Below, piece after piece: positions 4,408 through 18,680 of a DNA stretch of 22,869 bases. The DNA lies in IMG/VR virus record IMGVR_UViG_3300030117_003479, positions 1-22,869 of that record; one strand, written 5' to 3'. Each line of letters opens with the position of its first letter. The first letter of the stretch is position 1. The notes below the pieces were generated by a model that searched no databases, had not been told where the DNA came from, and was given only the letters and a program-made list of their open reading frames with translations. This DNA is from a virus. The position numbers and the translations under genes were made by a program.

Positions 4408-4532
4408 CTTGCTGTAACTGAACTTTTTGTAGGCTTAGTACGAACAGTAACTGCGTTAACAGAACTTTTAGTACGTGCTGTGACTGCACTTACCGTAGGT
4501 TTTGTTCTGGGAGTTACTGCTGTAGTTGCCAT
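4404..4532 (-). CDS. 42-residue peptide made of 11-residue repeats
   Basis: The ATG at 4532 shares a base with the stop of the o-spanin-like gene (TAATG), and the stop overlaps the adaptor start (ATGA), so this short frame sits exactly in the operon chain. The product is basic and almost wholly repetitive: AVTPRTKPTVS, AVTARTKSSVN, AVTVRTKPTKS, then SVTAR, following a short MATT leader. That is close to four copies of A/S-V-T-x-R-T-K plus four variable residues, with no acidic residue. I do not recognise the family from a named domain. It could be a virion minor component or nucleic-acid-binding peptide, but no function is shown by the sequence. The perfect junctions and repeat conservation at protein level support it being translated. 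Confidence 0.75.
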   Translation of the reverse strand: MATTAVTPRTKPTVSAVTARTKSSVNAVTVRTKPTKSSVTAR

Positions 4533-4726
4533 TAGTTACCTCTTTCTAACTCATACTCAAGGCGTGCTATCGTTCTCATCGCTTGTCGTGTGAAGTCCGG
4601 TGCGTGAAACGCCGCTCTCGGAAACTGCGGGTGTGCCGTCAGTTCCTTGACGTTCTCGTACTTCGGCGTCGTCTGGCAACCCGTGGATACGCATAGCGTT
4701 ATCAATATGAGTAAGCTTGTCCTCAT
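4532..4726 (-). CDS. Putative o-spanin-like (Rz1-type) outer-membrane lipoprotein
   Basis: The 64-residue product starts MRTSLLILITLCVSTGC: a short charged N-terminus, a hydrophobic core and a lipobox-like STGC, giving a mature lipoprotein starting at Cys17 and followed by QTTPKYENVKELTAHPQFPR. The frame is open further upstream (to 4813), but the internal ATG at 4726 gives a clean signal peptide and has AGAGG just before it, so I use it. Most of the gene lies out of frame inside the neighbouring ORF 4557-4835, the arrangement typical of Rz/Rz1 spanins, where an outer-membrane lipoprotein meets an inner-membrane partner to fuse the envelope at lysis. The residue at -3 of the lipobox (Ser) is not ideal. 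Lipoprotein: likely; spanin: inferred from architecture. Confidence 0.7.
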   Translation of the reverse strand: MRTSLLILITLCVSTGCQTTPKYENVKELTAHPQFPRAAFHAPDFTRQAMRTIARLEYELERGN

Positions 4727-4835
4727 ACCTCTGTGCTGCGTTTGCTTCTCTGACTGCATTTGATACTTGCACAAAAAACCTTTCCAAAGCAGGAAAGGCT
4801 TTGAACAACGCAAGTATGGCCTTAATTAGACCCAC
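4557..4835 (-). CDS. Putative i-spanin-like partner, 92 residues
   Basis: The frame begins with GTG at 4835, inside the 3' end of the preceding membrane-protein gene (14-nt overlap), with a weak AAAGAG ribosome site upstream. The N-terminus GLIKAILALFKAFPALERFF is hydrophobic but has two lysines, so it may be an amphipathic or signal-anchor helix and not an ordinary transmembrane segment. A charged, probably helical part follows (VREANAAQRYEDKLTHIDNAMR) and the last 40 residues are polar and probably disordered; that tail is where the lipoprotein gene overlaps in another frame. Rz-type i-spanins have an N-terminal anchor and a periplasmic coiled coil, which this resembles only loosely. The overlap with a lipoprotein gene is the main support. 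A small amphipathic lysis effector is an alternative. Confidence 0.6.
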   Translation of the reverse strand: MGLIKAILALFKAFPALERFFVQVSNAVREANAAQRYEDKLTHIDNAMRIHGLPDDAEVRERQGTDGTPAVSESGVSRTGLHTTSDENDSTP

Positions 4836-4995
4836 TTGTGTCGCTCTTTACACCTTTCCGTAGAAACACGGCAAGCAACGATGTAACAACAATGTTTATC
4901 ATCGTACCCATTTCCATGTCTCCAGAGAAGTACGCACCTACAGCCGCGAGAATACCACCGGCTGCCGTCATGTATGTCTTTTTACCTGATAACAT
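4822..4995 (-). CDS. 57-residue membrane protein, possible holin-like
   Basis: The ATG at 4995 directly follows the stop of the 44-residue gene (TAA-ATG with no gap), and the stop lies 14 nt inside the next gene. The product reads MLSGKKTYMTAAGGILAAVG, then a short acidic loop (GDMEM) and a second hydrophobic stretch (INIVVTSLLAVFL) followed by a basic/polar tail. This gives one or two short membrane segments with a positive tail, as in small phage holins and holin-like proteins. Two segments of about 13-15 residues are short for classical transmembrane helices, so topology is uncertain. Small proteins starting 'xxGKKTYxTAAG' are familiar from lysis regions of aquatic phages, but no function can be proven here. 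Confidence 0.7.
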   Translation of the reverse strand: MLSGKKTYMTAAGGILAAVGAYFSGDMEMGTMINIVVTSLLAVFLRKGVKSDTSGSN

Positions 4996-5305: not shown

Positions 5306-5454
5306 TCACTCTTTTCGCCTTGGTATTCTATATCAAAGAAAGGCGTGTCTACTTCCAAAGAACCCGGCAAAGACTTACAGCCACTTGCCATCACGACAAT
5401 AAAGACCAACGCTCCTATGAAAATTCCTAGTGTTATTTTATCAGTCCTGTTCAT
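5302..5454 (-). CDS. Small lipoprotein, 50 residues
   Basis: The frame from ATG 5454 to TGA 5302 sits inside a chain of overlaps: it starts within the 3' end of the MscS-like gene (14 nt) and ends in an ATGA overlap. The product begins MNRTDKITLGIFIGALVFIV and continues VMASGC, a lipoprotein signal peptide with a lipobox-like ASGC at Cys26. The mature part is only 25 residues (CKSLPGSLEVDTPFFDIEYQ, then GEKSE) and ends acidic. The size is like that of an Rz1-type o-spanin, but the mature region lacks the usual Pro richness. It is the second lipoprotein of this small cassette. Target membrane and role are not shown; it may act as an alternative spanin subunit or an accessory of the MscS-like gene it overlaps. 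Confidence 0.75.
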   Translation of the reverse strand: MNRTDKITLGIFIGALVFIVVMASGCKSLPGSLEVDTPFFDIEYQGEKSE

Positions 5455-5836
5455 CTTCTACCAGCTCCACTTTCATTACGCCAACTTCGTCACCTTTCGG
5501 CAAGTAGGCTTCACCGCCATTGACAGGCAGCCTTTTCTCTACAATAAGAGCCTTTAACTGTTCGTTAGGTACAATCATTTTTGTCTGCCTATCAGTCATA
5601 AAAAAAGTAGTAGAGGTCAAGCCGAGTCGTATAACCCGTGCTTGCCTCCCACTAATGTAGAGAATTTCGTCATTCTCAAAACTACTGCCCCAATAGATTA
5701 GTAAACCTTGGGCAAAGTTAAACAAGATGTCCTTGAACAGCAGCGCACAAAACGCAGCAACAATCATCCACCCATAATGGCCGATTGCTTGTTCTGCTAC
5801 GCGATCAAGTGCTGCATGATCTAGGACATTAGTCAT
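5441..5836 (-). CDS. Miniature MscS-like channel protein
   Basis: This 131-residue protein has a hydrophobic segment at about 22-34, then FKDILFNFAQGLLIYWGSSF and DEILYISGRQARVIRLGL, followed by TSTTFFMTDRQTKMIVPNEQ. This lines up in order with the pore helix and β domain of MscS mechanosensitive channels as I remember E. coli MscS: the 'SLSNLAAG' pore helix, 'F--GE', the 'G--G-V--I---ST' strand pair, and the signature 'IPN' before the next strand. The outer sensor helices and most of the C-terminal cage are missing; full MscS is about twice as long. It would sit in the inner membrane as an oligomer. It overlaps the 80-residue gene upstream and the lipoprotein gene downstream, so it belongs to the lysis/envelope cassette. 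MscS-like fold: fairly sure; channel activity: inferred. Confidence 0.75.
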   Translation of the reverse strand: MTNVLDHAALDRVAEQAIGHYGWMIVAAFCALLFKDILFNFAQGLLIYWGSSFENDEILYISGRQARVIRLGLTSTTFFMTDRQTKMIVPNEQLKALIVEKRLPVNGGEAYLPKGDEVGVMKVELVEDEQD

Positions 5837-6071
5837 TAACTGCTTTGTCTACTGTATCTTCTTTTTCTTCTAGCGACTGATTCAACAAACCCATGAAGTG
5901 ATTTCTCGCTCCAAGTGTTTGTTCCAAACTGAAGTTAATCTGACTCGCTTTGCGGTCAAGATCACTTACATGGTTTATTAGCGTGACTTGCTGTGGAGTC
6001 AAGTCTGCTACGTTGTGTTCTTCCCCGTTAATGATAACGGTTTCCTTCTTCTCTGGATTTTCTGAGTCCAT
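5829..6071 (-). CDS. 80-residue hydrophilic protein, possibly DUF6447-like
   Basis: The ATG at 6071 has a good AAAGGA ribosome site 8 nt upstream and lies 5 nt after the fibre stop; the gene ends 8 nt inside the MscS-like gene. The product starts MDSENPEKKETVIINGEEHN, then has VADLTPQQVTLINHVSDLDR and a helical part with SLEQTLGARNHFMGLLNQSL. The layout 'short β, D/E-L-T-x-x-x, helix with DLDRK, helix with x-ARNxF' resembles the small phage proteins annotated as DUF6447, which have no known function; I give this from memory with modest confidence. It is probably two helices packed as a hairpin or coiled coil. The place right after the fibre gene would fit a fibre-assembly helper, but no evidence points to a partner. 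Confidence 0.75.
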   Translation of the reverse strand: MDSENPEKKETVIINGEEHNVADLTPQQVTLINHVSDLDRKASQINFSLEQTLGARNHFMGLLNQSLEEKEDTVDKAVND

Positions 6072-6076
6072 AAAAA

Positions 6077-9000
6077 TTATCCTTTAAGTGCTTTAACTTC
6101 TGCACTTAGTTCTTGTACAGCCTTCAGCAACGGAATCACCAAGTTGCTGTACTTCACCGCCAGCTTTCCGTTCGCGCCTTTAGTCACCAAATCAAACTCA
6201 ACACCGGCATCAGCCATCGCGGTTTGTACATCCTGTGCGACAAGTCCGAGACGCACCGTGTCATCGTCGTCTGGTCGTTCGTCAGCCGGTACAGTTACTG
6301 TCTTGTAAACAGCTTCTTGTGCCTCGACTGCTGGACTCACCAAGCGACGTTCCTTGACTTCCTCAACTGCTGGCTCGGCTGGTGTAATCACGCGCACTTC
6401 AGTTCGTGCTGGAACAGCCGGTGATACCAAGCGGCGTTCAGTACGTTCCGGTTCAGCTTCGCGGACAACAACCATCTCGCGCACTTCTTCCTGCGCTTCT
6501 TGAACCACGACAGTCTCACGCTTCTCCTCGCGTGCCTCCTGCACAACAACGGTTTCGCGCTTCTCCTCTTGTGCTTCTTGAACGACGTACTCCTCGCGAA
6601 CCGGACATTGATGTATCACTTGTTCGGTGACAGCCGCTTTGGCTTCAACTGCTGGCTCAACAATTTCAGTTCGTGCTGGCTCAAGTTCAACGATTTCAGT
6701 CTTGGCCGGTTCAATAACCACGGTTTCCATGACTGCGTTACCTTCTTCGTCAACAACACCGTCACCATTTTCGTCTACTGTTTGACGTTCTTCTGTGACC
6801 GCTGGAATCTCACGTTCCTCCGTAACTGCTGGAACCTCGCGAGTGACCGCTTCTTTGGCTTCAACAGCCGGTGAAATAATGTTCAAGCATGGAGTACCGT
6901 CCTCGTTGACGACCGGATGATCCACATACAACGGAGTCCGCTCAATACGAGTGACTGTTTCGGTGGTGACTTTTCGGATGTAGTTGTTGCCTTCACCCTT
7001 AACCATCTCCACCTTCTCAACCTCCTCGGTGACTTCCTTCTCGTCGTGCTTGTGGCGTTCACCTTTAATCTCTTCGCGTGCTTCTTGTACTATGCGCTCC
7101 TCGGTAATTTCCTCCTGCGCCTCTTGTACAACACGTTCCTCGGTAATTTCCTCGCATGCGTGTTGGGTAACTTGTTCCTCCTTGAGTTCCTCAACAGCAG
7201 GAATGATTACGTCTTCCCAAACCTCCTCTTTCGCTGGGTGTTCAATCGTCTCGGTGACTTCCTCAACAGCAGCGCGTGCTTCGACAACAACAACGTCCTC
7301 GTACACGGCTTCAGCAGCTTCAACTGCTGGCGTGACAAGTTCCTGCTGTTCCTCAACGCGATAACGGTGACTCCGAATTTCCTCCGGCCAATCAGCAGGA
7401 TTCAGTTTTTTGTACTCAACGGCAGTTAGCTTCTCAACAAACGACAAGCCAACATTCGTGTCCTTGATGTCACGCTTGATTCGGCGATCCGATAGCGCGG
7501 CGATTGATGTATCCGCGCAGTGAATTGCGCCCGTGTCGTCATTGCCAAGTGTGATCGTGTTGTCACCGTTGGATACAGCCGTATAACCAATGACAATTTC
7601 ATTACTGGGAGCCGTCGATGAGGCGCGAGTATCGTACCCAATGTAAATTGAATTAGCGCCACCCGTATTGTCGCCGTCTGGTGTTCCTGAACCAGGCGTT
7701 GATGATGGGTCTGTTTCGTGGTAGCGACCGGCTTCAAATCCTACTGCAACATTGTTGTCAGCGGCATCGTTGTTTAGTGCAAACAATGCAGCTTGTCCTA
7801 TCGCTGTATTTTTTGACTCACCGCCATCAGCTTGACCCATTGCATTAGAACCAACTGCTGTGTTGTGAGTTCCTGCAACTACAGCGTCCAATGCTTGTGA
7901 GCCGATTGCAGTATTGTGACCCCCAGTAGCCGCTTTGAGTGCTTGATAACCAAGCGCAACAGATTCGTCCGCAGTAGTTAGTGCGCTTCCAGCTTCAAGG
8001 CCAATTAGTACGTTTTTTGAACCATCCGTAACTGCGAGACCGGCATTTACCCCAATCGCCATGTTGACTGCTGCCGCATCGTTTTGTGCCGTCAGCGCAT
8101 TAGAACCGATAGCGATGCAATAGTCTGCACCACTTGCTTCAGCACCCAATGCATCTTTACCAATAGCAAGGTTGTGGTTGCTATCACCAGTTATCGCATC
8201 AGCCGCTGCATAACCGATGGCGATGTTGTAATCGCCTATGGTTATTGCCTTACCGGCATCAAAGCCCATCAGTACGTTGCCGGGGCCGCTTGTTATTGCC
8301 AGACCAGCTTGATAACCAACGCAAACATTGTCGCTGGCTGTCATTGCACCTGCGCCAGCAGTATAACCAATCAGCGTGTTGTTCTGTCCTGTTCCAGCTT
8401 GGAAAGCTGAATTACCCAGTACTGTATTGGCGTTGCCAGTAGAAACTGCGCTACCAGCTAAATAACCGACAACCGTGTTGCCAGTACCACTCGTAATTGC
8501 ATCACCCGCGAGTCCACCTATTGCGGTGTTTTTGACGTTGCCGTTTTGGCTGAGTAGCGCGTTAGTTCCGATTGCTACACAATAGTCTGCGCCGCTTGTT
8601 TCAGTACCTAACGCTTGGTGACCAATGGCGACATTGTAGTGTTCCGTGCCATTAGCCGCATCAAGCGCATACACACCAACAGCGACATTGCCAGTACCGG
8701 TCGTCATATTTGCGCCAGCATTACGACCGACAAATGTGTTTTCAGCACCCGTCGTTAAGTCCTCACCAGTTAAGTAACCAATGCAAGTGTTGCTGTCGCC
8801 GGTTCCTGAGTAGAACGTCAGCGTCTGATTGTTAGCTGTTGTTGTCGCAGCAATTGAAATCGTAAACGACGTAACCGATCCCGCGCTGTTGACTGAATCA
8901 ACATAAGCACCATACGGAATGCCACTACCAGTTACCGTTTGGCCAACTGCAATTTGGCCAGACGAGTCACACAATATTGTTGTTGATCCGTTTAAGTCGC

Positions 9001-12000
9001 AAGTGCCGTCGGTAAATGTGCTGCTTTTGTGGGCGTGATAGCCGAGTGCTGTGTTAGCTGCTGCGTGACCAACTGCAAACCCAGCGTCATAACCAACCAT
9101 TGTGTTGTACGAATCAACAGTTGCGTATCCACTCCGATAACCAAACATTGTGTTGCTGGTAGCAGATTTGTTACGCATCGACGCTTGGTAACCAACAGCA
9201 GTATTGATTACGTTAGCATTTTGACCTTGTAACGCACTGTGACCAATAGCTACACAAGCGTCAGCACCGGATGTTTCGTTGGCTAACGCGCTCGACCCAA
9301 TAGCGACATTGTACAGTTCACCATCGTTGGCTGATGCTAACGCGTTGTAGCCAATTACAATGTTGTTGTGGTTGTTTGTGACGTTTGCGGCAGCACCGTA
9401 TCCAAGTAGCACGTTGCGATAACCGCTTGTCAAATCCTTGCCAGCACCACCGCCAACAACTGTATTATGGTCACCGGTAATTTCTCCTAAACCACCAGAG
9501 TTGTACCCGATGAAAACATTATCGGTTCCCTCAGTTAAGTTTAGACCAGCTTGACTCCCAACCGCCGTGTTGTTTGCGGAGTTTACGTTTTGATCAAACA
9601 AGGCATGAAAACCAATAGCTACGGTGTTGCCGCCTTGGTCTTCGGTCTTGAGCGCGCTGTGACCTATCGCAACATTCTGGTTTGCTGACGTAATCGCTGT
9701 GCCAGCGTTGTACCCAATTGCAACATTGGAATAAGCAGTCGTTGCTGCATCAAGGGTATAACTACCGATTGCTATGTTATCGTTGCCAGTTACCGCAGTA
9801 GTACCATCACCTCGTAAAGCATCACGCCCAATCGCAACACAACTGCTAATTGTAGTAGCGTCATATCCAGCAAGGCGACCAATTAGCACGTTGCTGTCGC
9901 CTGTTACGTCTAGACCGGCGCTGTGACCAACAGCAGTATTGTAGTCACCGGTAACCAGATTAGTTAAAGTATTGTATCCAATGGATACGTTTTGCGTAGC
10001 GGTAGTAACTTTGTCTAAGGCGTAACTACCAATTGCTATGTTGTAGTCGCCTGTGGTGTTGCCGCTTGCACCAAGGAAAGCATTGCGACCGATTGCTACG
10101 CAGTGGTCTACGGTTGTGGCGTAATAACCGGCATTCATACCGACCATCACATTGCTGTTTCCTGTTAACGCAAAAGCTGCACTTGCGCCGATTGCGGTGT
10201 TTTGCGCTCCTGTTACGCAACTAGCTAATGCGTTGTTTCCAACGGCTGTTTGGTCGTCACCCTCTGTTACCGATCCTGCTGCATGAGTACCTACAACAGT
10301 TAAATTCGCTGCACTTGTCGCTGCATCTGCTGCGTGTGAACCGACTACTGTTGCGTTAGCACCCGTAAATGCATAAAGTGCTGCATAACCAATTCCCGTG
10401 TTGTTATCGCCACAATCGCCAGTACCCAATGCAGTAGCACCAAGTGCCGTGTTGTAACCACCGTCAATGGTTGCACTTAAAGCGCCTTGACCAACCGCAG
10501 TCAGATTTAATGCACTAGTTGCTGCGTCTGCTGCACCACTTCCAACTGCAACTGCGTCTGATCCGGTAAAACTAATTAATGCGTGCTTTCCAACCGCTGT
10601 GTTGTCGTCAGCACAATCTGCTGATAAAGCCGCAACTCCGACAGCAGTATTGTTTGCGCCGTCAATCGTTTCGTCTAAACAGTTATCACCCACCGCTGTA
10701 TTGTCATTACCGCTAGTGGCAGCACCCAATGCGTGTTTACCAACAGCAGTTAAACCAGTTTGACCAACTGCAACGTCTGCTGCAAAAGCACCTACTGCTG
10801 TTGCACCGTTGCCGGTGAATGCCTGAAGTGCGCTGTTGCCAACCGCTGTATTGTAGTTAGCGCAATCAGCGTTTAGCGCAGAATAACCAACAGCGGTGTT
10901 CTGTATACCAGTATCAGTCTGACCGCTATTTGAACCAACAAAAGTATTTTGGTAGCCACTCGTTATTGCTGCACCAGCATTGTTACCGACCGCCGTGTTG
11001 TGATCGGCATTATTGTCGTTCAGTGCAGTCAGCGCATCGTGACCAATAGCCGTGTTTCTTACTGCCGTTGAAGCTGAACCGTTTGCATCCAGCGCACCAT
11101 CACCAACGGCTGTGCTTTCTGCGTCACCATTCGCACCGTGACCGATGTTGAGTGAACCAACTGTGAGTGTGCCGCTGGAGTTTATCGTTAAATCCGCCGC
11201 CGGTTCGCTGAAACCTCCACTTGCGTTCGCAGTCCCAATAGTCAGCGTTCCGGTATTTGTGACCTTAATTGCGGCAGTGTACCCCTCTGTGCCACTCGCC
11301 TTTCCACCAAAAGTTAAAAGCGAAGCCGCGCCGCTGCCTTGTGCAGGATTGTGCAGCAGTAACTCGGGGCCGACTGCTGTGCTAGCCGAACCTTCTAGCT
11401 GCATTTTCTTCGCGCCGACGTTGGCATCAAGTGCAGCAGCACCTACCAGAACGTCGCCGGTGCTGTTAGCAATTGACAGTCGTGTCGTTTGATTAGTTTG
11501 CAGTGCCAATCCTCCGACGACTGCATTCATTTTCAAACCACCAGACGCACCGCTGCCTGTTGAAATCGTGCCGCTGTCGGCCCAACCCGCAACGCCTGTG
11601 TAGTTTGAACCGTTCATCGACAGGTCTAAATTACCGCTGTCGCTGAGTACGTTCACCATCGCACGCGCTGCTGTGCCGGTGGATTCGTTCTTAACTCCAA
11701 ATTTAACTATGCCGTTTGAATCAGTATGCTGTTCGATGTTTCCGTCACTTGCTATAGTGAGACGCTCGGTATTTGTTCCAGCATCGGGACAAGTTGAAAA
11801 TACGAGCGAAGTTGACTCGTCAGCGTCTGTTGCAGTCTCTTTTTTCGCCGCTATCGAAGCACCTTCAAACGAAGCCGTGCTGTGCGGAATGTAGAAACTT
11901 TGTTTCGGCCCCATTCCTGCGACCAAGTTTACGCCTTCATCTTTAACTTCTAGACGCGCAACTTCTAATGGAGACGATCCGGTTGTTGCTGGGACTTTGG

Positions 12001-12205
12001 CGTGAAACGCAACAGCCGGTGAAATACCAATTCCTAATTCGGCAGCACCACTGCTTGCGTCTTGTATTATGTAGACGCCATCAGCACCGCCATCAGACGG
12101 TTGCCATTGCATGATCTCGCCAGAACCATCTGATCTAACGATGGGTTCGTTTTCGTAAGAGACACCTGTTGTATGAATTGAACTTTGCTGAGTAATCCTA
12201 GCCAT
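6077..12205 (-). CDS. Giant tail-fibre/spike with YadA-head-like repeats and a split S74 chaperone
   Basis: This 2042-residue protein starts at ATG 12205 with a TAAGG ribosome site. Residues 1 to about 360 form a β-rich N-terminal part. Residues about 364-1555 are dozens of repeats of the form N-T-A-V/I-G-x-x-A-L/G with spacing of mostly 16-22 residues, the left-handed β-roll pattern of YadA-type adhesin heads; an unrelated β module interrupts them near 1066-1134. The C-terminus is a Peptidase_S74 intramolecular chaperone: Ser1572 in ALSDRRIKRDI is the expected self-cleavage residue, and GLVAQDV begins at 1987, followed by a terminal coiled helix. Between those parts (about 1605-1980) lies a Glu/Val-rich insert with 13-residue repeats and an EF-hand-like loop. 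The S74 domain is known to trimerise fibres and then cut itself off. Receptor binding is inferred. Confidence 0.9.
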   Translation of the reverse strand: MARITQQSSIHTTGVSYENEPIVRSDGSGEIMQWQPSDGGADGVYIIQDASSGAAELGIGISPAVAFHAKVPATTGSSPLEVARLEVKDEGVNLVAGMGPKQSFYIPHSTASFEGASIAAKKETATDADESTSLVFSTCPDAGTNTERLTIASDGNIEQHTDSNGIVKFGVKNESTGTAARAMVNVLSDSGNLDLSMNGSNYTGVAGWADSGTISTGSGASGGLKMNAVVGGLALQTNQTTRLSIANSTGDVLVGAAALDANVGAKKMQLEGSASTAVGPELLLHNPAQGSGAASLLTFGGKASGTEGYTAAIKVTNTGTLTIGTANASGGFSEPAADLTINSSGTLTVGSLNIGHGANGDAESTAVGDGALDANGSASTAVRNTAIGHDALTALNDNNADHNTAVGNNAGAAITSGYQNTFVGSNSGQTDTGIQNTAVGYSALNADCANYNTAVGNSALQAFTGNGATAVGAFAADVAVGQTGLTAVGKHALGAATSGNDNTAVGDNCLDETIDGANNTAVGVAALSADCADDNTAVGKHALISFTGSDAVAVGSGAADAATSALNLTAVGQGALSATIDGGYNTALGATALGTGDCGDNNTGIGYAALYAFTGANATVVGSHAADAATSAANLTVVGTHAAGSVTEGDDQTAVGNNALASCVTGAQNTAIGASAAFALTGNSNVMVGMNAGYYATTVDHCVAIGRNAFLGASGNTTGDYNIAIGSYALDKVTTATQNVSIGYNTLTNLVTGDYNTAVGHSAGLDVTGDSNVLIGRLAGYDATTISSCVAIGRDALRGDGTTAVTGNDNIAIGSYTLDAATTAYSNVAIGYNAGTAITSANQNVAIGHSALKTEDQGGNTVAIGFHALFDQNVNSANNTAVGSQAGLNLTEGTDNVFIGYNSGGLGEITGDHNTVVGGGAGKDLTSGYRNVLLGYGAAANVTNNHNNIVIGYNALASANDGELYNVAIGSSALANETSGADACVAIGHSALQGQNANVINTAVGYQASMRNKSATSNTMFGYRSGYATVDSYNTMVGYDAGFAVGHAAANTALGYHAHKSSTFTDGTCDLNGSTTILCDSSGQIAVGQTVTGSGIPYGAYVDSVNSAGSVTSFTISIAATTTANNQTLTFYSGTGDSNTCIGYLTGEDLTTGAENTFVGRNAGANMTTGTGNVAVGVYALDAANGTEHYNVAIGHQALGTETSGADYCVAIGTNALLSQNGNVKNTAIGGLAGDAITSGTGNTVVGYLAGSAVSTGNANTVLGNSAFQAGTGQNNTLIGYTAGAGAMTASDNVCVGYQAGLAITSGPGNVLMGFDAGKAITIGDYNIAIGYAAADAITGDSNHNLAIGKDALGAEASGADYCIAIGSNALTAQNDAAAVNMAIGVNAGLAVTDGSKNVLIGLEAGSALTTADESVALGYQALKAATGGHNTAIGSQALDAVVAGTHNTAVGSNAMGQADGGESKNTAIGQAALFALNNDAADNNVAVGFEAGRYHETDPSSTPGSGTPDGDNTGGANSIYIGYDTRASSTAPSNEIVIGYTAVSNGDNTITLGNDDTGAIHCADTSIAALSDRRIKRDIKDTNVGLSFVEKLTAVEYKKLNPADWPEEIRSHRYRVEEQQELVTPAVEAAEAVYEDVVVVEARAAVEEVTETIEHPAKEEVWEDVIIPAVEELKEEQVTQHACEEITEERVVQEAQEEITEERIVQEAREEIKGERHKHDEKEVTEEVEKVEMVKGEGNNYIRKVTTETVTRIERTPLYVDHPVVNEDGTPCLNIISPAVEAKEAVTREVPAVTEEREIPAVTEERQTVDENGDGVVDEEGNAVMETVVIEPAKTEIVELEPARTEIVEPAVEAKAAVTEQVIHQCPVREEYVVQEAQEEKRETVVVQEAREEKRETVVVQEAQEEVREMVVVREAEPERTERRLVSPAVPARTEVRVITPAEPAVEEVKERRLVSPAVEAQEAVYKTVTVPADERPDDDDTVRLGLVAQDVQTAMADAGVEFDLVTKGANGKLAVKYSNLVIPLLKAVQELSAEVKALKG
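6431..6586 (-). repeat. Four 39-bp tandem repeats in the S74 insert
   Basis: The encoded protein repeats a 13-residue unit about four times: VVQEAQEEKRET, VVVQEAREEKRET, VVVQEAQEEVREM and VVVREAEPERTER (residues about 1874-1925). The DNA copies are similar but diverged at many third positions, so the repeat is kept at protein level. It is predicted to be highly charged and helical or extended. Confidence 0.75.
7037..7153 (-). repeat. Second block of 13-residue repeats in the S74 insert
   Basis: This codes for about three 13-residue units from residue 1685: EEITEERVVQEAQ, EEITEERIVQEAR and EEIKGERHKHDEK. It is the same unit as the block at 6431-6586 in a different phase, showing that the insert grew by tandem duplication. 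Confidence 0.7.
7540..11115 (-). repeat. Long array of diverged repeats coding the fibre shaft/head
   Basis: The DNA is a long string of related short units coding for NTAVG/NVAIG-type repeats. Larger units are visible: the words SGADACVAIG, SGADYCVAIG and SGADYCIAIG have their Cys codons at 9256, 8581 and 8119. The last two are 462 bp (154 residues) apart; the first two are 675 bp apart, which is 154 residues plus a 71-residue insert. A separate 87-residue period links Cys codons at 10102 and 9841. Confidence 0.8.
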
Positions 12206-15500: not shown

Positions 15501-17154
15501 TTGGATTTAGTACCTGCTGTACCTGTTGCATTATCTGTTGCAGTTGCTGCTGATAAGGTTGTGCCTCCTCACTTAACTGCCCGGTTTCTGGATCAGTAAT
15601 TAAAGACTGAACAATTGTTTGAAGCTGCATGAGTAGCTGTGTCTTGGCGTTGTCATCTTGGATAGCTTGAACGTAGGCTTGACCATCTTCAGGAAACAAC
15701 ATTGAGACGAAGCGTTTAAGAAAGAGGGAAGCCGCGCCTGTTTGTTGAACGACAGGCCATGCTTGCATCATCTTGTTTATCTTTTCCTGACGCTCTATTA
15801 CGTCTGCGTCCCCTGCCGGTCTTATTGAGTATTCGTGGTCTGTGAAAAAATTTGGAGGTATTGAAGCCTGTATAAGTCCTTCTATTGTTCTTAACCTGTA
15901 TATGTTCCAACATTGCGTGTAAACTTTTTTAAGTGCTATGCTAAAGAGCGCAACTTGTGAAGCTGAAAGTGCTTGGGCTTCTGACGTTGCAGCTTGTACT
16001 TCTGTGGCTGTCTTTCGACTATCTTTACGGTTCATGGCCGCAAAGTTTACCTGAGAAGTCTCCTGCATATTCTGACCCAGTATCGTTTGGATTGCGCCCA
16101 TGATAGATGAGTCAGGTGGACTAAGCTGAAATTGTTTTATGTTAGAATCAATAAGAGCGTTTGGAGTAAAGAACACGCTAGTTTGTACATTGGTGTTGTT
16201 TGGATCGTTGTTGTCCTTGGCGAAGTACAATCCAGAGGCTCTACGGTGCGCCGTAACAAACGACGATAAGAGTGATGTTGCCGATTCTTGTGCATACTCA
16301 TCAAGTTCTGCTCGCCCTTTCATCAGCGAGATGGTCGTGTCCTCGTTAATGTTGTACGGGAATAAGACGTAAGGATACTGCGTTTCAAATAGTTCTTCAC
16401 CTTGTTGACGTTTACCAAGGAACAAAGGGCGAGGCTTACGTACCCAATCATTACAACGATCTATACAAGCCCACCCAACATAAACTACGTTGTTCTTTTT
16501 GAACAAAACCTTCTGAACTTCCATCAAGGAGTAGTTCTCAGCCAGCTCCTTAAAATCCAAATTGTTAACCTGCTCTTTGTTAAAGTCGTCGGTTTCAGCC
16601 ATACGCTTTAACTGAAGGTCTGTGAAGTAGTGCCTGTGAACAATCATTTCACAAGCTTGTATGTCCCGCGCATCTTCAGGCAAACCAAGATCTTCAAAGT
16701 TAACATCGTTAACAGCAAAGTGACCAGGTTTTGTTACGTCGAAAGAAACTTCTGCTACACCGTAGCCGTGTAGCTGCATGGAATCTATGATACGGAATAT
16801 GGATGTTTGCCAGCCCGTGTATCTTGCTTTGTCTGTAAAGTCTTCCTCAAGTACAGTTGAGTCAAACGTAACATCGTTGAGACTTTTGAAGATAGCCACA
16901 CGCCTTGAAGAACTTATATAAGACACGTAACGAGCCTGTTCGCGTCGTATGTTCATATCCACAAGGTGCAACGGTATGTACAACTCATCTGGAGCTAAAT
17001 GGCCACTACGCTGCTCTGCGTCTATGTCTATTGTAGGATGACGCAGGAGTCTGTGTTCGTCCGCTTTTGTAGCTTGTGTTTGAAGATGGCTGTTTAGGCG
17101 ATGTATTTCTTTCGCCGCATCATCATACTTTATGTAGTCATAATCAGTCTTCAT
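15469..17154 (-). CDS. Portal protein
   Basis: This 561-residue protein follows TerL with a 4-nt overlap and is the right length for a podoviral portal. It begins with a hydrophilic N-terminus (MKTDYDYIKYDDAAKEIHRL), has the aromatic/basic segments REQARYVSYISSSRRVAIFK and IIDSMQLHGYGVAEVSFDVT of a portal wing, the portal-like helical part RKTATEVQAATSEAQALSAS, and a final Gln-rich tail (QQQLQQIMQQVQQVLNPNGQ). Portals form a 12-mer ring at one head vertex through which DNA enters and to which the adaptor binds. The family is clear from context, length and the 'TATEV' helix preceding the crown; I cannot place each domain exactly. The Gln-rich C-terminus is unusual and may be a flexible barrel. 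Confidence is high. Confidence 0.85.
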   Translation of the reverse strand: MKTDYDYIKYDDAAKEIHRLNSHLQTQATKADEHRLLRHPTIDIDAEQRSGHLAPDELYIPLHLVDMNIRREQARYVSYISSSRRVAIFKSLNDVTFDSTVLEEDFTDKARYTGWQTSIFRIIDSMQLHGYGVAEVSFDVTKPGHFAVNDVNFEDLGLPEDARDIQACEMIVHRHYFTDLQLKRMAETDDFNKEQVNNLDFKELAENYSLMEVQKVLFKKNNVVYVGWACIDRCNDWVRKPRPLFLGKRQQGEELFETQYPYVLFPYNINEDTTISLMKGRAELDEYAQESATSLLSSFVTAHRRASGLYFAKDNNDPNNTNVQTSVFFTPNALIDSNIKQFQLSPPDSSIMGAIQTILGQNMQETSQVNFAAMNRKDSRKTATEVQAATSEAQALSASQVALFSIALKKVYTQCWNIYRLRTIEGLIQASIPPNFFTDHEYSIRPAGDADVIERQEKINKMMQAWPVVQQTGAASLFLKRFVSMLFPEDGQAYVQAIQDDNAKTQLLMQLQTIVQSLITDPETGQLSEEAQPYQQQLQQIMQQVQQVLNPNGQQPQPTAS

Positions 17155-18680
17155 TCTTGTAATGCCCTAATCTCTTCGAGTAAAAATTCTTGAGCGACAG
17201 GATCACGCTTAGGCAATAAATGCTTAATACGATTGTTATGCTTAGCTTGCTTTAAGGTAAAAACCTTACGCTCAGTCTTCGGTTCGCACTTGTTAAGTTT
17301 GTACTTGACACGCTTACCTCTGGTTTTTGTAGGGTAGTAGTCACAGAAAGCAAGCACAAAAGCATCGGCTTGGTCAGGAGACTTACGCCCTTTCGACTTC
17401 GCTACCTTCTTACTCTCTAGCTGTAGCTTGTTTTGAGGCGTTACCATGTAGTATCGAGAGGCAAGCTGTTTACGTAATGTACTGTACTTGGGTATGATTA
17501 TCTCCTTGTTTTCAATAAGTTTAGCTACGTTAAACCACGTTTCTGCGCCGCGATTTAAGTAGGCTAACTCATTACGAGGTTTTGCTTGGTTAAGAACGTA
17601 CTTGACAGGCCAGTTGTTTGCTTTTAATGTATCAAGTATTGGCTTACCTAGACCACCAGCATCTCCGTATATTATGGCATCTTGGTTATCTAGATTGTAT
17701 TTGTAGAAAAGTTTTTCAAGATGCTCAATCAAAACAACCGTATCCGTAAACTTAAATGACTCAAGCGCAATAAGTTGATTACCGTTACGTACCGCAAGAA
17801 CCTGTTCGTCACCACCTGCTGAAAGGTCAAGACCTGCTGTGTTCTGCTCGGCTGCCTTGTGATCTATCTCAACCTCATCGAGTTCCACAAGCTGTTGAAA
17901 GTTTATCACTACCTGTTCTTCTAAGCCACCAAAGTCAGCTAGAATCATTGAACGGTAGAGGGTGGAGTTTTCTCCGTAAGCGTTCTTTACGTCATCTATG
18001 TAGTCTTGACTAAGATGCGGACAATCAAAAGCCGTTACGTGATACTGTTTCCATACGTTACCCACACAAGCGTTGTAGAAGTGACCGTCAGGTATTCCTG
18101 GCGAACTGACATCGACACGTTTAGTAAAGCCAGTACAGCGAGCTAAAGCTGTAAAGATGTCGTCAGTAATAGACTTAGCTTCTGAAACGAAAATTCCAAA
18201 CTGACCATTAGCCACCGCTGGATGCCAGCCCTCAGCTCTACCGGGTTCATCTGTTGCAAACAACTCTATCGTGGAGCCATTCAACAAGTTAGTGTAATGT
18301 CTGTAGTTTATTTTCCATATCTGCTTCTCAAACAATCTATTTATTCCATTGAGTAATTGCTGTATATACCTGTCTGTCTGGCGATCCAACTGATTACCAG
18401 ATGCAGAAGTTATGATGCAAAGCGAGTCATCATAGACTGTACCTAACCATACGGCGCAAGGGGCTATTATATATTTGTCCTTACCCGAACCGTTAGCTGC
18501 ACGAACAACTGAACGAAACGGGTCTTGGTCAGTAGATGGCTTGGCAAAGTCAGTCATTATCTGAGCTTGCCACTTGTGTAGTTTCATCTGACCGTTAAGA
18601 ATCTCGTCATCTACGAATGTGACGAGTTCTAGGGGCGAGTTAAACTTTAGGCTACGTTCTTGTTTAGTAGCTATCGACAT
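17151..18680 (-). CDS. Terminase large subunit (ATPase and nuclease)
   Basis: This 509-residue protein packages phage DNA: an N-terminal ATPase drives translocation and a C-terminal RNase-H-like nuclease cuts concatemers. Visible motifs are a Walker A with N63-G-S-G-K67-D-K69, a Walker B with hydrophobic FGIFV161-165 and Glu167, and candidate nuclease acids in GLDLSAGGD (Asp285), IIYGDAGG (Asp340) and SPDQADAF (Asp436/Asp439). The start ATG 18680 overlaps the TerS end by 17 nt, and the stop overlaps the portal start by 4 nt. The residue after the Walker A lysine is Asp rather than Ser/Thr, which departs from the usual GK(S/T). The C-terminus is very basic (TKTRGKRVKYKLNK) and could bind DNA or the portal. 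TerL is sure; the type of end produced is not. Confidence 0.92.
   Translation of the reverse strand: MSIATKQERSLKFNSPLELVTFVDDEILNGQMKLHKWQAQIMTDFAKPSTDQDPFRSVVRAANGSGKDKYIIAPCAVWLGTVYDDSLCIITSASGNQLDRQTDRYIQQLLNGINRLFEKQIWKINYRHYTNLLNGSTIELFATDEPGRAEGWHPAVANGQFGIFVSEAKSITDDIFTALARCTGFTKRVDVSSPGIPDGHFYNACVGNVWKQYHVTAFDCPHLSQDYIDDVKNAYGENSTLYRSMILADFGGLEEQVVINFQQLVELDEVEIDHKAAEQNTAGLDLSAGGDEQVLAVRNGNQLIALESFKFTDTVVLIEHLEKLFYKYNLDNQDAIIYGDAGGLGKPILDTLKANNWPVKYVLNQAKPRNELAYLNRGAETWFNVAKLIENKEIIIPKYSTLRKQLASRYYMVTPQNKLQLESKKVAKSKGRKSPDQADAFVLAFCDYYPTKTRGKRVKYKLNKCEPKTERKVFTLKQAKHNNRIKHLLPKRDPVAQEFLLEEIRALQE

Follow-up and report, generated by a model that had tools for sequence, protein, structure and literature searches.

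The window, i.e. the whole stretch of 22,869 bases analysed here, is a virus record that carries a row of small genes on its minus strand (Table 1). The gene of interest, mini-MscS, is read from position 5836 to 5441 over 131 codons, and stops interrupt the plus-strand frame. An earlier note on this DNA had described the open reading frame, with its strand left unstated, as a minimal MscS-like channel overlapped by a lipoprotein gene. The frame is real and lies on the minus strand, the overlap is confirmed, and all motifs named at that time (ILFNFAQGLLI, F53-E-N-D-E57, STT and VPN) were found.

Table 1. Genes and features of the cassette around mini-MscS in the window
Feature	Position	Strand	Remarks
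80-aa gene upstream of the slot	5829..6071	(-)	phrog_21153 (unknown function), E 3.7e-10; 8-nt overlap with mini-MscS
mini-MscS, 131 aa	5441..5836	(-)	One TM3-like helix and MscS beta domain; Pfam, hhalign, model and fold search
Small lipoprotein, type A, 50 aa	5302..5454	(-)	Lipobox, then CKSLPGSLEVDTPFFDIEYQGEKSE; 14-nt overlap with the mini-MscS gene
52-aa single-TM protein, cluster C2	5147..5305	(-)	68/89 loci; no informative PHROG match
44-aa basic protein, cluster C30	4996..5130	(-)	13/89 loci
Small membrane protein of 57 aa (cluster C3) with weak holin similarity	4822..4995	(-)	66/89 loci
92-aa protein (cluster C6), perhaps the inner half of a nested spanin-like pair	4557..4835	(-)	44/89 loci; by arrangement only
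93-aa ORF with internal lipobox, spanin-like, cluster C5	4532..4813	(-)	Out of frame within the 92-aa gene; 45/89 loci

The spanin-like and small membrane genes which the earlier note had placed next to the channel gene are indeed lysis-like in this lineage, but their holin and spanin matches are weak. In detail, phrog_3428 was matched by 3 of 19 members of the 57-aa cluster (best E 0.034) and phrog_962 by one of the 19 (E 0.0052), and non-holin families match this cluster equally weakly. The 93-aa ORF matched four Rz-like spanin families in PHROGs at weak E-values of 0.05-0.26, and a PHROG search with the enclosing 92-aa protein gave no match. The layout of the region 4532-4835, an ORF with a lipobox nested out of frame in a small gene, resembles Rz/Rz1 spanins and recurs in about half of the 89 loci. 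The idea that the 52-aa protein might be a holin of the T7 type was discarded, as it found no support in PHROG.

Outside the cassette, positions 6077-12205 encode a protein of 2042 aa; tail-spike and virion families of PHROG were matched along its C-terminal 1568 residues in 14 and 12 repeated stretches. The large terminase subunit (17151-18680) is closest by E-value to those of Akkermansia phages (best 32% identity, E 8e-48), a similarity that gives a hint of a possible host in or near Verrucomicrobiota. In a 46.6-kb relative (L203-L205), which is nearly identical to the window, late-type genes lie mostly on one strand and the cassette is located between a long tail-fibre-like gene and an SU10-like adaptor gene, the latter assigned by family match.

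MscS homology and truncation of mini-MscS

By its pore helix and beta domain mini-MscS is a member of the MscS superfamily, yet it is no canonical MscS channel. Pfam PF00924 (MS_channel_2nd) matches residues 36-94 with an E-value of 3.4e-5 and 24.3 bits, above its cut-off of 20.2; the same family is matched by all 26 members of alignment A1 (E up to 0.1), and each of eight mini-MscS contigs contains one match over the cut-off. We regard as the strongest sequence test of this homology the profile-profile comparison with hhalign, in which 49 relatives were aligned to eight cellular MscS homologues with a probability of 90.4 (E 1.4e-6, 63 columns), and a control with another family of the same cassette scored 0.3. 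A profile search had been proposed in the earlier note as a check, and this comparison, which aligns residues 31-94, bears the MscS assignment out. Among solved structures, a search with the single sequence gave the plant MSL1 as top match (E 0.0074), followed by H. pylori MscS (0.09) and E. coli MscS (at least 0.8), and a profile of 26 close relatives brought no improvement (best E 0.032). The scores against the NCBIfam MscS models are far below their cut-offs, as is expected of a partial protein.

The predicted structure points in the same direction. An AlphaFold model of the single chain, calculated from a 49-row alignment, reached a mean pLDDT of 67.5 and a pTM of 0.41, with residues 21-100 at 72-82 per ten-residue block; a model from 26 close relatives alone had reached a pLDDT of just 52.4. 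The model consists of a long helix with a break at residue 34 (helices 4-33 and 35-50), followed by a small beta domain (strands 58-61, 64-71, 75-80 and 86-90). In a Foldseek search with this model ranks 1-44 all carry titles of MscS-type mechanosensitive channels, ten of them at E <= 0.001. The VIA-align comparison with MscS (Z 7.1, rmsd 3.3, 85 residues) is middling if taken alone, as all Z-scores stay below 8, and unrelated small barrels such as Tudor, CarD, FeoA and a transposase score Z 5-6.4, so that the beta domain by itself is not diagnostic. A chance motif match can be dismissed in view of the curated Pfam cut-off, the conservation among 49 members, the dN/dS values given below and the fold.

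What is left of MscS in this protein of 131 aa, compared with the 286 residues of E. coli MscS, is a TM3-type pore helix running into the beta domain, as evident from the residues aligned by hhalign, the conserved positions and the model helices. The TM1-TM2 sensor helices are absent, since in the 49 relatives the TM helix is preceded by just 22-43 residues and a hydropathy scan of five members revealed hydrophobic windows nowhere outside the TM3-like stretch. The C-terminal alpha/beta cage is missing as well, because the protein ends about 35 residues past the beta domain. The loss of sensor helices and cage, which had been read from the sequence before, is borne out by the length of the N-tail, hydropathy and the protein end, and a tension sensor that times lysis, as raised in the earlier note, would have to do without these helices. 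The pore-helix motif is strongly conserved among the 49 relatives, with K/R35 in all 49, D36 in 48, N40 in 46 and G44 in 39 (A in the other 10), and several positions with small residues in TM3a of E. coli MscS have bulkier ones here.

In MscS, the end that precedes TM3 is located outside and the beta domain inside. The N-tail of mini-MscS is acidic in all 49 relatives (net charge -7 to -1), and 47 of them also have a basic beta domain, a pattern for which the charge rule predicts the N-tail outside and the beta domain inside. On the basis of its homology to MscS, the protein may assemble into a ring, and the homology alone would also suggest conductance.

Mini-MscS is a conserved family of uncultured marine phages. 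Pattern searches in IMG/VR retrieved 54 relatives with the window protein, 219 with alignment A1, 102 with A3 and 8 with A4, these sets overlapping, and the best 80 of 219 (A1) and the best 80 of 102 (A3) were kept for further work. Twelve close members are under purifying selection, with a median dN/dS of 0.055 over 38 usable pairs. A decaying host gene is thereby ruled out, as the relatives are open frames under this selection. Tblastn searches of 50,697 phage records with three family members gave nothing convincing (E at least 0.8, none at E <= 1 and E at least 0.05, respectively); of the three weak matches of the third query, two come from Salmonella records and represent cellular genes of the MscS type, and a named phage with mini-MscS was not accepted from these hits. 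One genome scan for a cellular reservoir of the short form, using two short patterns, yielded two loci: L106 is a MAG contig whose genes look like those near the phoH-linked mini-MscS copies described below, and L107 was rejected as a chance match inside an unrelated protein of 449 aa; a cellular reservoir was not accepted from these two loci.

Two further features recur near mini-MscS. A small basic domain ending in FRARH-C...W was found in otherwise different contigs (L005:1104-1364, L094:10999-12081, L047:4169-4468), and an N-terminus that we read as prepilin-like occurs in two unrelated contigs (L078:3493-3762, L193:7169-7462), in L078 between mini-MscS and the lipoprotein gene.

The lipoprotein partner and the exchange of the slot protein

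Using a lipobox rule and lipoprotein types (A, B and C) defined in this analysis, we found that in 107 of 143 loci mini-MscS has a typed lipoprotein gene on its own strand at a distance of up to 60 nt, the total of 143 resulting from 147 loci minus four reverse-strand copies of contigs already counted. The most common offset is -3 (56 of the 107), and in eight of the 107 the lipoprotein gene lies upstream of mini-MscS; L095 has this order together with a TM protein downstream. Four of the remaining 36 loci without an adjacent typed lipoprotein have one further away. As a background, 211 of 7332 small ORFs elsewhere in these loci, counted on both strands, contain a lipobox. The median dN/dS of the lipoprotein is 0.129 over 28 usable pairs. 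The three types align with each other at hhalign probabilities of 96-99, mostly across the signal peptide, and likely represent one common family, of which mature type A has about 25 residues. Mapped on the mini-MscS tree with four labels including 'none', the types change 15 times, compared with a minimum of 3 and a shuffled mean of 26.1, which indicates that they are partly inherited and repeatedly exchanged. The longer lipoproteins of types B and C (L132:5501-5800, L099:7756-7944) have a C-terminal LMPM/LMEM-type motif in common, which is absent from the short type A of the window.

Anchoring the search on the lipoprotein instead revealed that the partner gene is exchanged as well. This set comprises 166 loci (37 loci, the best 80 of 99 and 49 loci) with near-copies included and flanks of up to 2.5 kb. 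According to profile matches the slot is occupied by mini-MscS in 111 loci and by a coiled-coil protein in 47, never by both, and by neither in eight, three of which begin at a contig end; at 90% non-redundancy, with proteins under 80 aa left out, the counts are 44 and 20. The coiled-coil protein has a single TM and about 97-110 aa, some copies being cut by contig ends, and in all 47 loci its gene immediately precedes that of the lipoprotein, on one and the same strand. Mini-MscS shares the strand of the lipoprotein in all 111; it precedes the lipoprotein in 104 and follows it in 7, and the distance is larger for six of these pairs (161-1688 nt). The mutual exclusion holds from the other sides too: no coiled-coil match was detected in the mini-MscS-anchored loci, PF00924 is absent from seven of seven contigs with the coiled-coil form (31-43 kb), and a search anchored on the coiled-coil protein gave 73 loci, 52 of them with the lipoprotein and none with mini-MscS, the 21 without lipoprotein being the last-ranked, remote ones.

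Both forms share their surroundings. The 52-aa gene occurs in the flanks of 40 of 47 coiled-coil loci and 59 of 111 mini-MscS loci, the holin-like 57-aa gene in 38 and 56, respectively. Lipoprotein types A and B are combined with either slot protein, and type C with mini-MscS (33) or neither (4). Homology between the two slot proteins was rejected (hhalign 5.1). The coiled-coil protein matches phrog_18771 (unknown function) in all eight cases scanned, seven at E <= 5e-7 and one at 0.063, and Pfam gave no support for a BhlA/UviB-type holin. A weak relative of it (29%, E 0.02) is encoded in the Methylophilales phage Melnitz (L380:3995-4342) directly upstream of the curli genes CsgF and CsgG. As one slot thus holds either an MscS core or a coiled-coil protein of like apparent topology together with the same lipoprotein and small membrane genes, both most likely serve one function, for which mechanosensation as such is not needed.

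This exchange bears on three further explanations. An osmotic safety valve that preserves the infected cell until burst, a role that the earlier note had considered, would make sense for a homologue of a tension-gated channel, and channel and osmolyte genes are reported in viruses along salinity gradients in the accessible part of PMC13288924. However, TM1-TM2 are missing, and in sister phages the slot is taken by a protein that has no MscS domain, in contigs lacking PF00924, so that osmotic protection fits badly and we think it very unlikely. The slot exchange also disfavours a poison subunit, which would enter host MscS rings via TM3 and the beta domain and block or lock them: judged from homology, mini-MscS has kept the helix and beta domain where MscS subunits meet, but the coiled-coil protein replaces it without such an interface and with the same lipoprotein, and we assign this idea a very small probability, the smallest of those discussed here. 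Quite unlikely, in our opinion, is also a non-conducting scaffold, whose beta domain would merely oligomerise, like the coiled coil in the alternative form, and whose helix would anchor the lipoprotein or another partner. The similar apparent layout of the replacing protein and the bulkier residues in TM3a are in line with such a scaffold, but the conservation of the pore-helix motif is higher than would be expected of a plain anchor.

A possible part of a lysis module

Evidence for a role in lysis comes from gene context. Remote relatives of the coiled-coil protein adjoin endolysin genes in two of three loci scanned (L442 and L453, not L447). The order in L442 is a phrog_21153 gene (E 1.2e-16), the coiled-coil protein, two small proteins with TM stretches and an endolysin with matches to phrog_465 (E 4.3e-41) and, above the cut-off, to Pfam M15_4, and phrog_21153 is common to this locus and the window, in both cases upstream of the slot-type protein. 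At the end of L453 there is again a phrog_465 endolysin (E 8e-34), which stays below the cut-off of Pfam M15_4, and the coiled-coil protein of this locus is a remote match of the slot family (hhalign 95.4, 48 columns). L447 has phrog_3108, of unknown function, where the endolysin might stand. The holin-like role considered in the earlier note therefore gains from the slot exchange with a protein whose remote relatives adjoin endolysins, but mini-MscS itself matched no holin family in Pfam or PHROGs.

Several observations speak against such a role. The endolysin families phrog_465, PF00959, PF01510 and PF01464 were each found in none of eight contigs, which include both slot types (controls were positive in 1, 3, 6 and 8 of 14 genomes, respectively), and this lowers our confidence. 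The 46.6-kb relative likewise has no endolysin among nine chosen proteins searched with Pfam, nor by the four families over the contig. In addition, the mini-MscS/lipoprotein pair was found beside phoH on larger contigs, where no lysis genes are visible in its surroundings; PhoH exceeds the cut-off in six of six such contigs tested, and phoH directly adjoins mini-MscS for example in L132, L185 and L144. A 'T4-like' label for these contigs was not used, because Gp23 gave 0/8 and the controls were likewise unmatched, so that this search is uninformative. The setting in a lysis cassette, as originally described, thus agrees with the lysis-like neighbours in this lineage but is not visible around the phoH-linked copies. 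Also counting against a lysis module are the weak matches to holins and spanins and the 36 loci without an adjacent typed lipoprotein.

Nevertheless, the slot exchange and the lysis-like neighbours in this lineage lead us to favour a lysis module. The data suggest that a channel core was recruited as an exchangeable part of host-opening machinery. Tentatively, and with somewhat less than an even chance of being right, we propose that mini-MscS is an N-out/C-in, probably oligomeric membrane protein which cooperates with the lipoprotein and serves as an exchangeable lysis-module component. As a truncated MscS homologue whose gene lies in the late-strand block of the lineage, it would be inserted into the inner membrane with its acidic N-tail outside and the beta domain in the cytoplasm; the beta domain would drive ring assembly, and the adjacent small lipoprotein may be its partner at the periplasmic face. 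Judged by gene context and slot replacement, mini-MscS could then act as a permeabiliser or trigger in the manner of a holin, a releasin or LysF1b, probably alongside the separate holin-like protein encoded at 4822-4995.

More doubtful is the specific form of this idea, in which the MscS pore core is an interchangeable lysis effector, that is, a minimal beta-ring pore to which each subunit contributes one TM helix and which is controlled by the periplasmic lipoprotein and can be swapped with the coiled-coil protein. If true, this would represent a new class of lysis proteins that have the fold of a mechanosensitive channel, and its pore might be the smallest of the MscS type that works. Lysis proteins could then also arise when a host channel is captured and trimmed, and mini-MscS would offer a natural minimal MscS core for asking whether TM3 and the beta domain alone assemble, conduct or sense tension. 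For uncultured marine phages, the pairing of channel and lipoprotein, with the clean swap to the coiled-coil protein, provides a handle on envelope-breaking modules that have no annotation.

Since both of its parts are swapped, the strongest rival to a lysis module is superinfection exclusion or envelope remodelling, in which a lipoprotein and an inner-membrane partner in exchangeable variants block or alter the entry of competing phages. Small phage lipoproteins can exclude other phages. The frequent changes of lipoprotein type on the mini-MscS tree together with the swapped inner partner recall variable exclusion systems, and the occurrence of the pair away from lysis genes would fit as well. 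In the lineage of the window, however, the genes sit among late structural and lysis-like genes, and endolysins adjoin the remote coiled-coil relatives; we therefore consider exclusion unlikely.

Comparison with known systems

With members of the MscS superfamily, like the E. coli and Helicobacter MscS, Arabidopsis MSL1/MSL10 and MscK, mini-MscS shares the TM3-like helix with its K/R-D, N and G positions and the beta domain with VPN. It differs in the lack of TM1-TM2 and cage and in being encoded by phages together with a lipoprotein. Mechanosensitive-channel genes in viruses are already in print, which restricts the earlier statement that no such phage system had been described: the parts of the two papers available to us report an MscS-like protein of 261 aa in an Aureococcus virus and MscL-like proteins in a Tetraselmis virus and CroV (PMC6163359) as well as MscL in Caudoviricetes (PMC13288924). 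These proteins are larger or of the MscL type, and the same parts of both papers mention neither a lipoprotein pairing nor a slot exchange. The statement holds for this arrangement of pairing and exchange, which was not found in the openly licensed PMC literature. An MscS gene of Staphylococcus prophages was not counted as a phage mini-MscS, because in the part of PMC8460829 available to us it is listed among chromosomal-looking genes in predicted prophage regions.

Among lysis proteins, the two-component Rz/Rz1 spanin consists of an inner subunit with a long periplasmic coiled coil and an outer lipoprotein, which jointly span the periplasm. Given the predicted topology, the outside part of 22-43 residues in mini-MscS and the mature type A lipoprotein seem too short for this task. 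Closer in layout, and likened by layout alone, are LysF1b of mycobacteriophages, a putative holin with a single TM in N-out/C-in orientation beside a 2-TM protein (PMC13056207), and the membrane-tethered releasin Mu gp25 (PMC9239132), which according to the parts of these papers available to us combine a single N-terminal TM with a cytoplasmic domain and belong to lysis gene sets. The coiled-coil slot protein resembles LysF1b in layout as well, judged by the description in that part. In contrast to mini-MscS with its MscS beta domain, the cytoplasmic part of LysF1b is described there as helical, and these parts of the two papers do not mention a lipoprotein partner. DUF2730 (Mu gp25) is not listed in the Pfam scan of mini-MscS.

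Finally, the best viral fold matches in BFVD are two unnamed proteins, A0A516LVN0 (104 aa, E 2.2e-6) and A0A516MLU7 (129 aa, E 3.3e-5), which are like mini-MscS in size and predicted fold at a low identity of 26% and 22%, respectively. The earlier expectation that similar genes may exist in databases was thus well founded, and proteins of this kind are already deposited there without a name.
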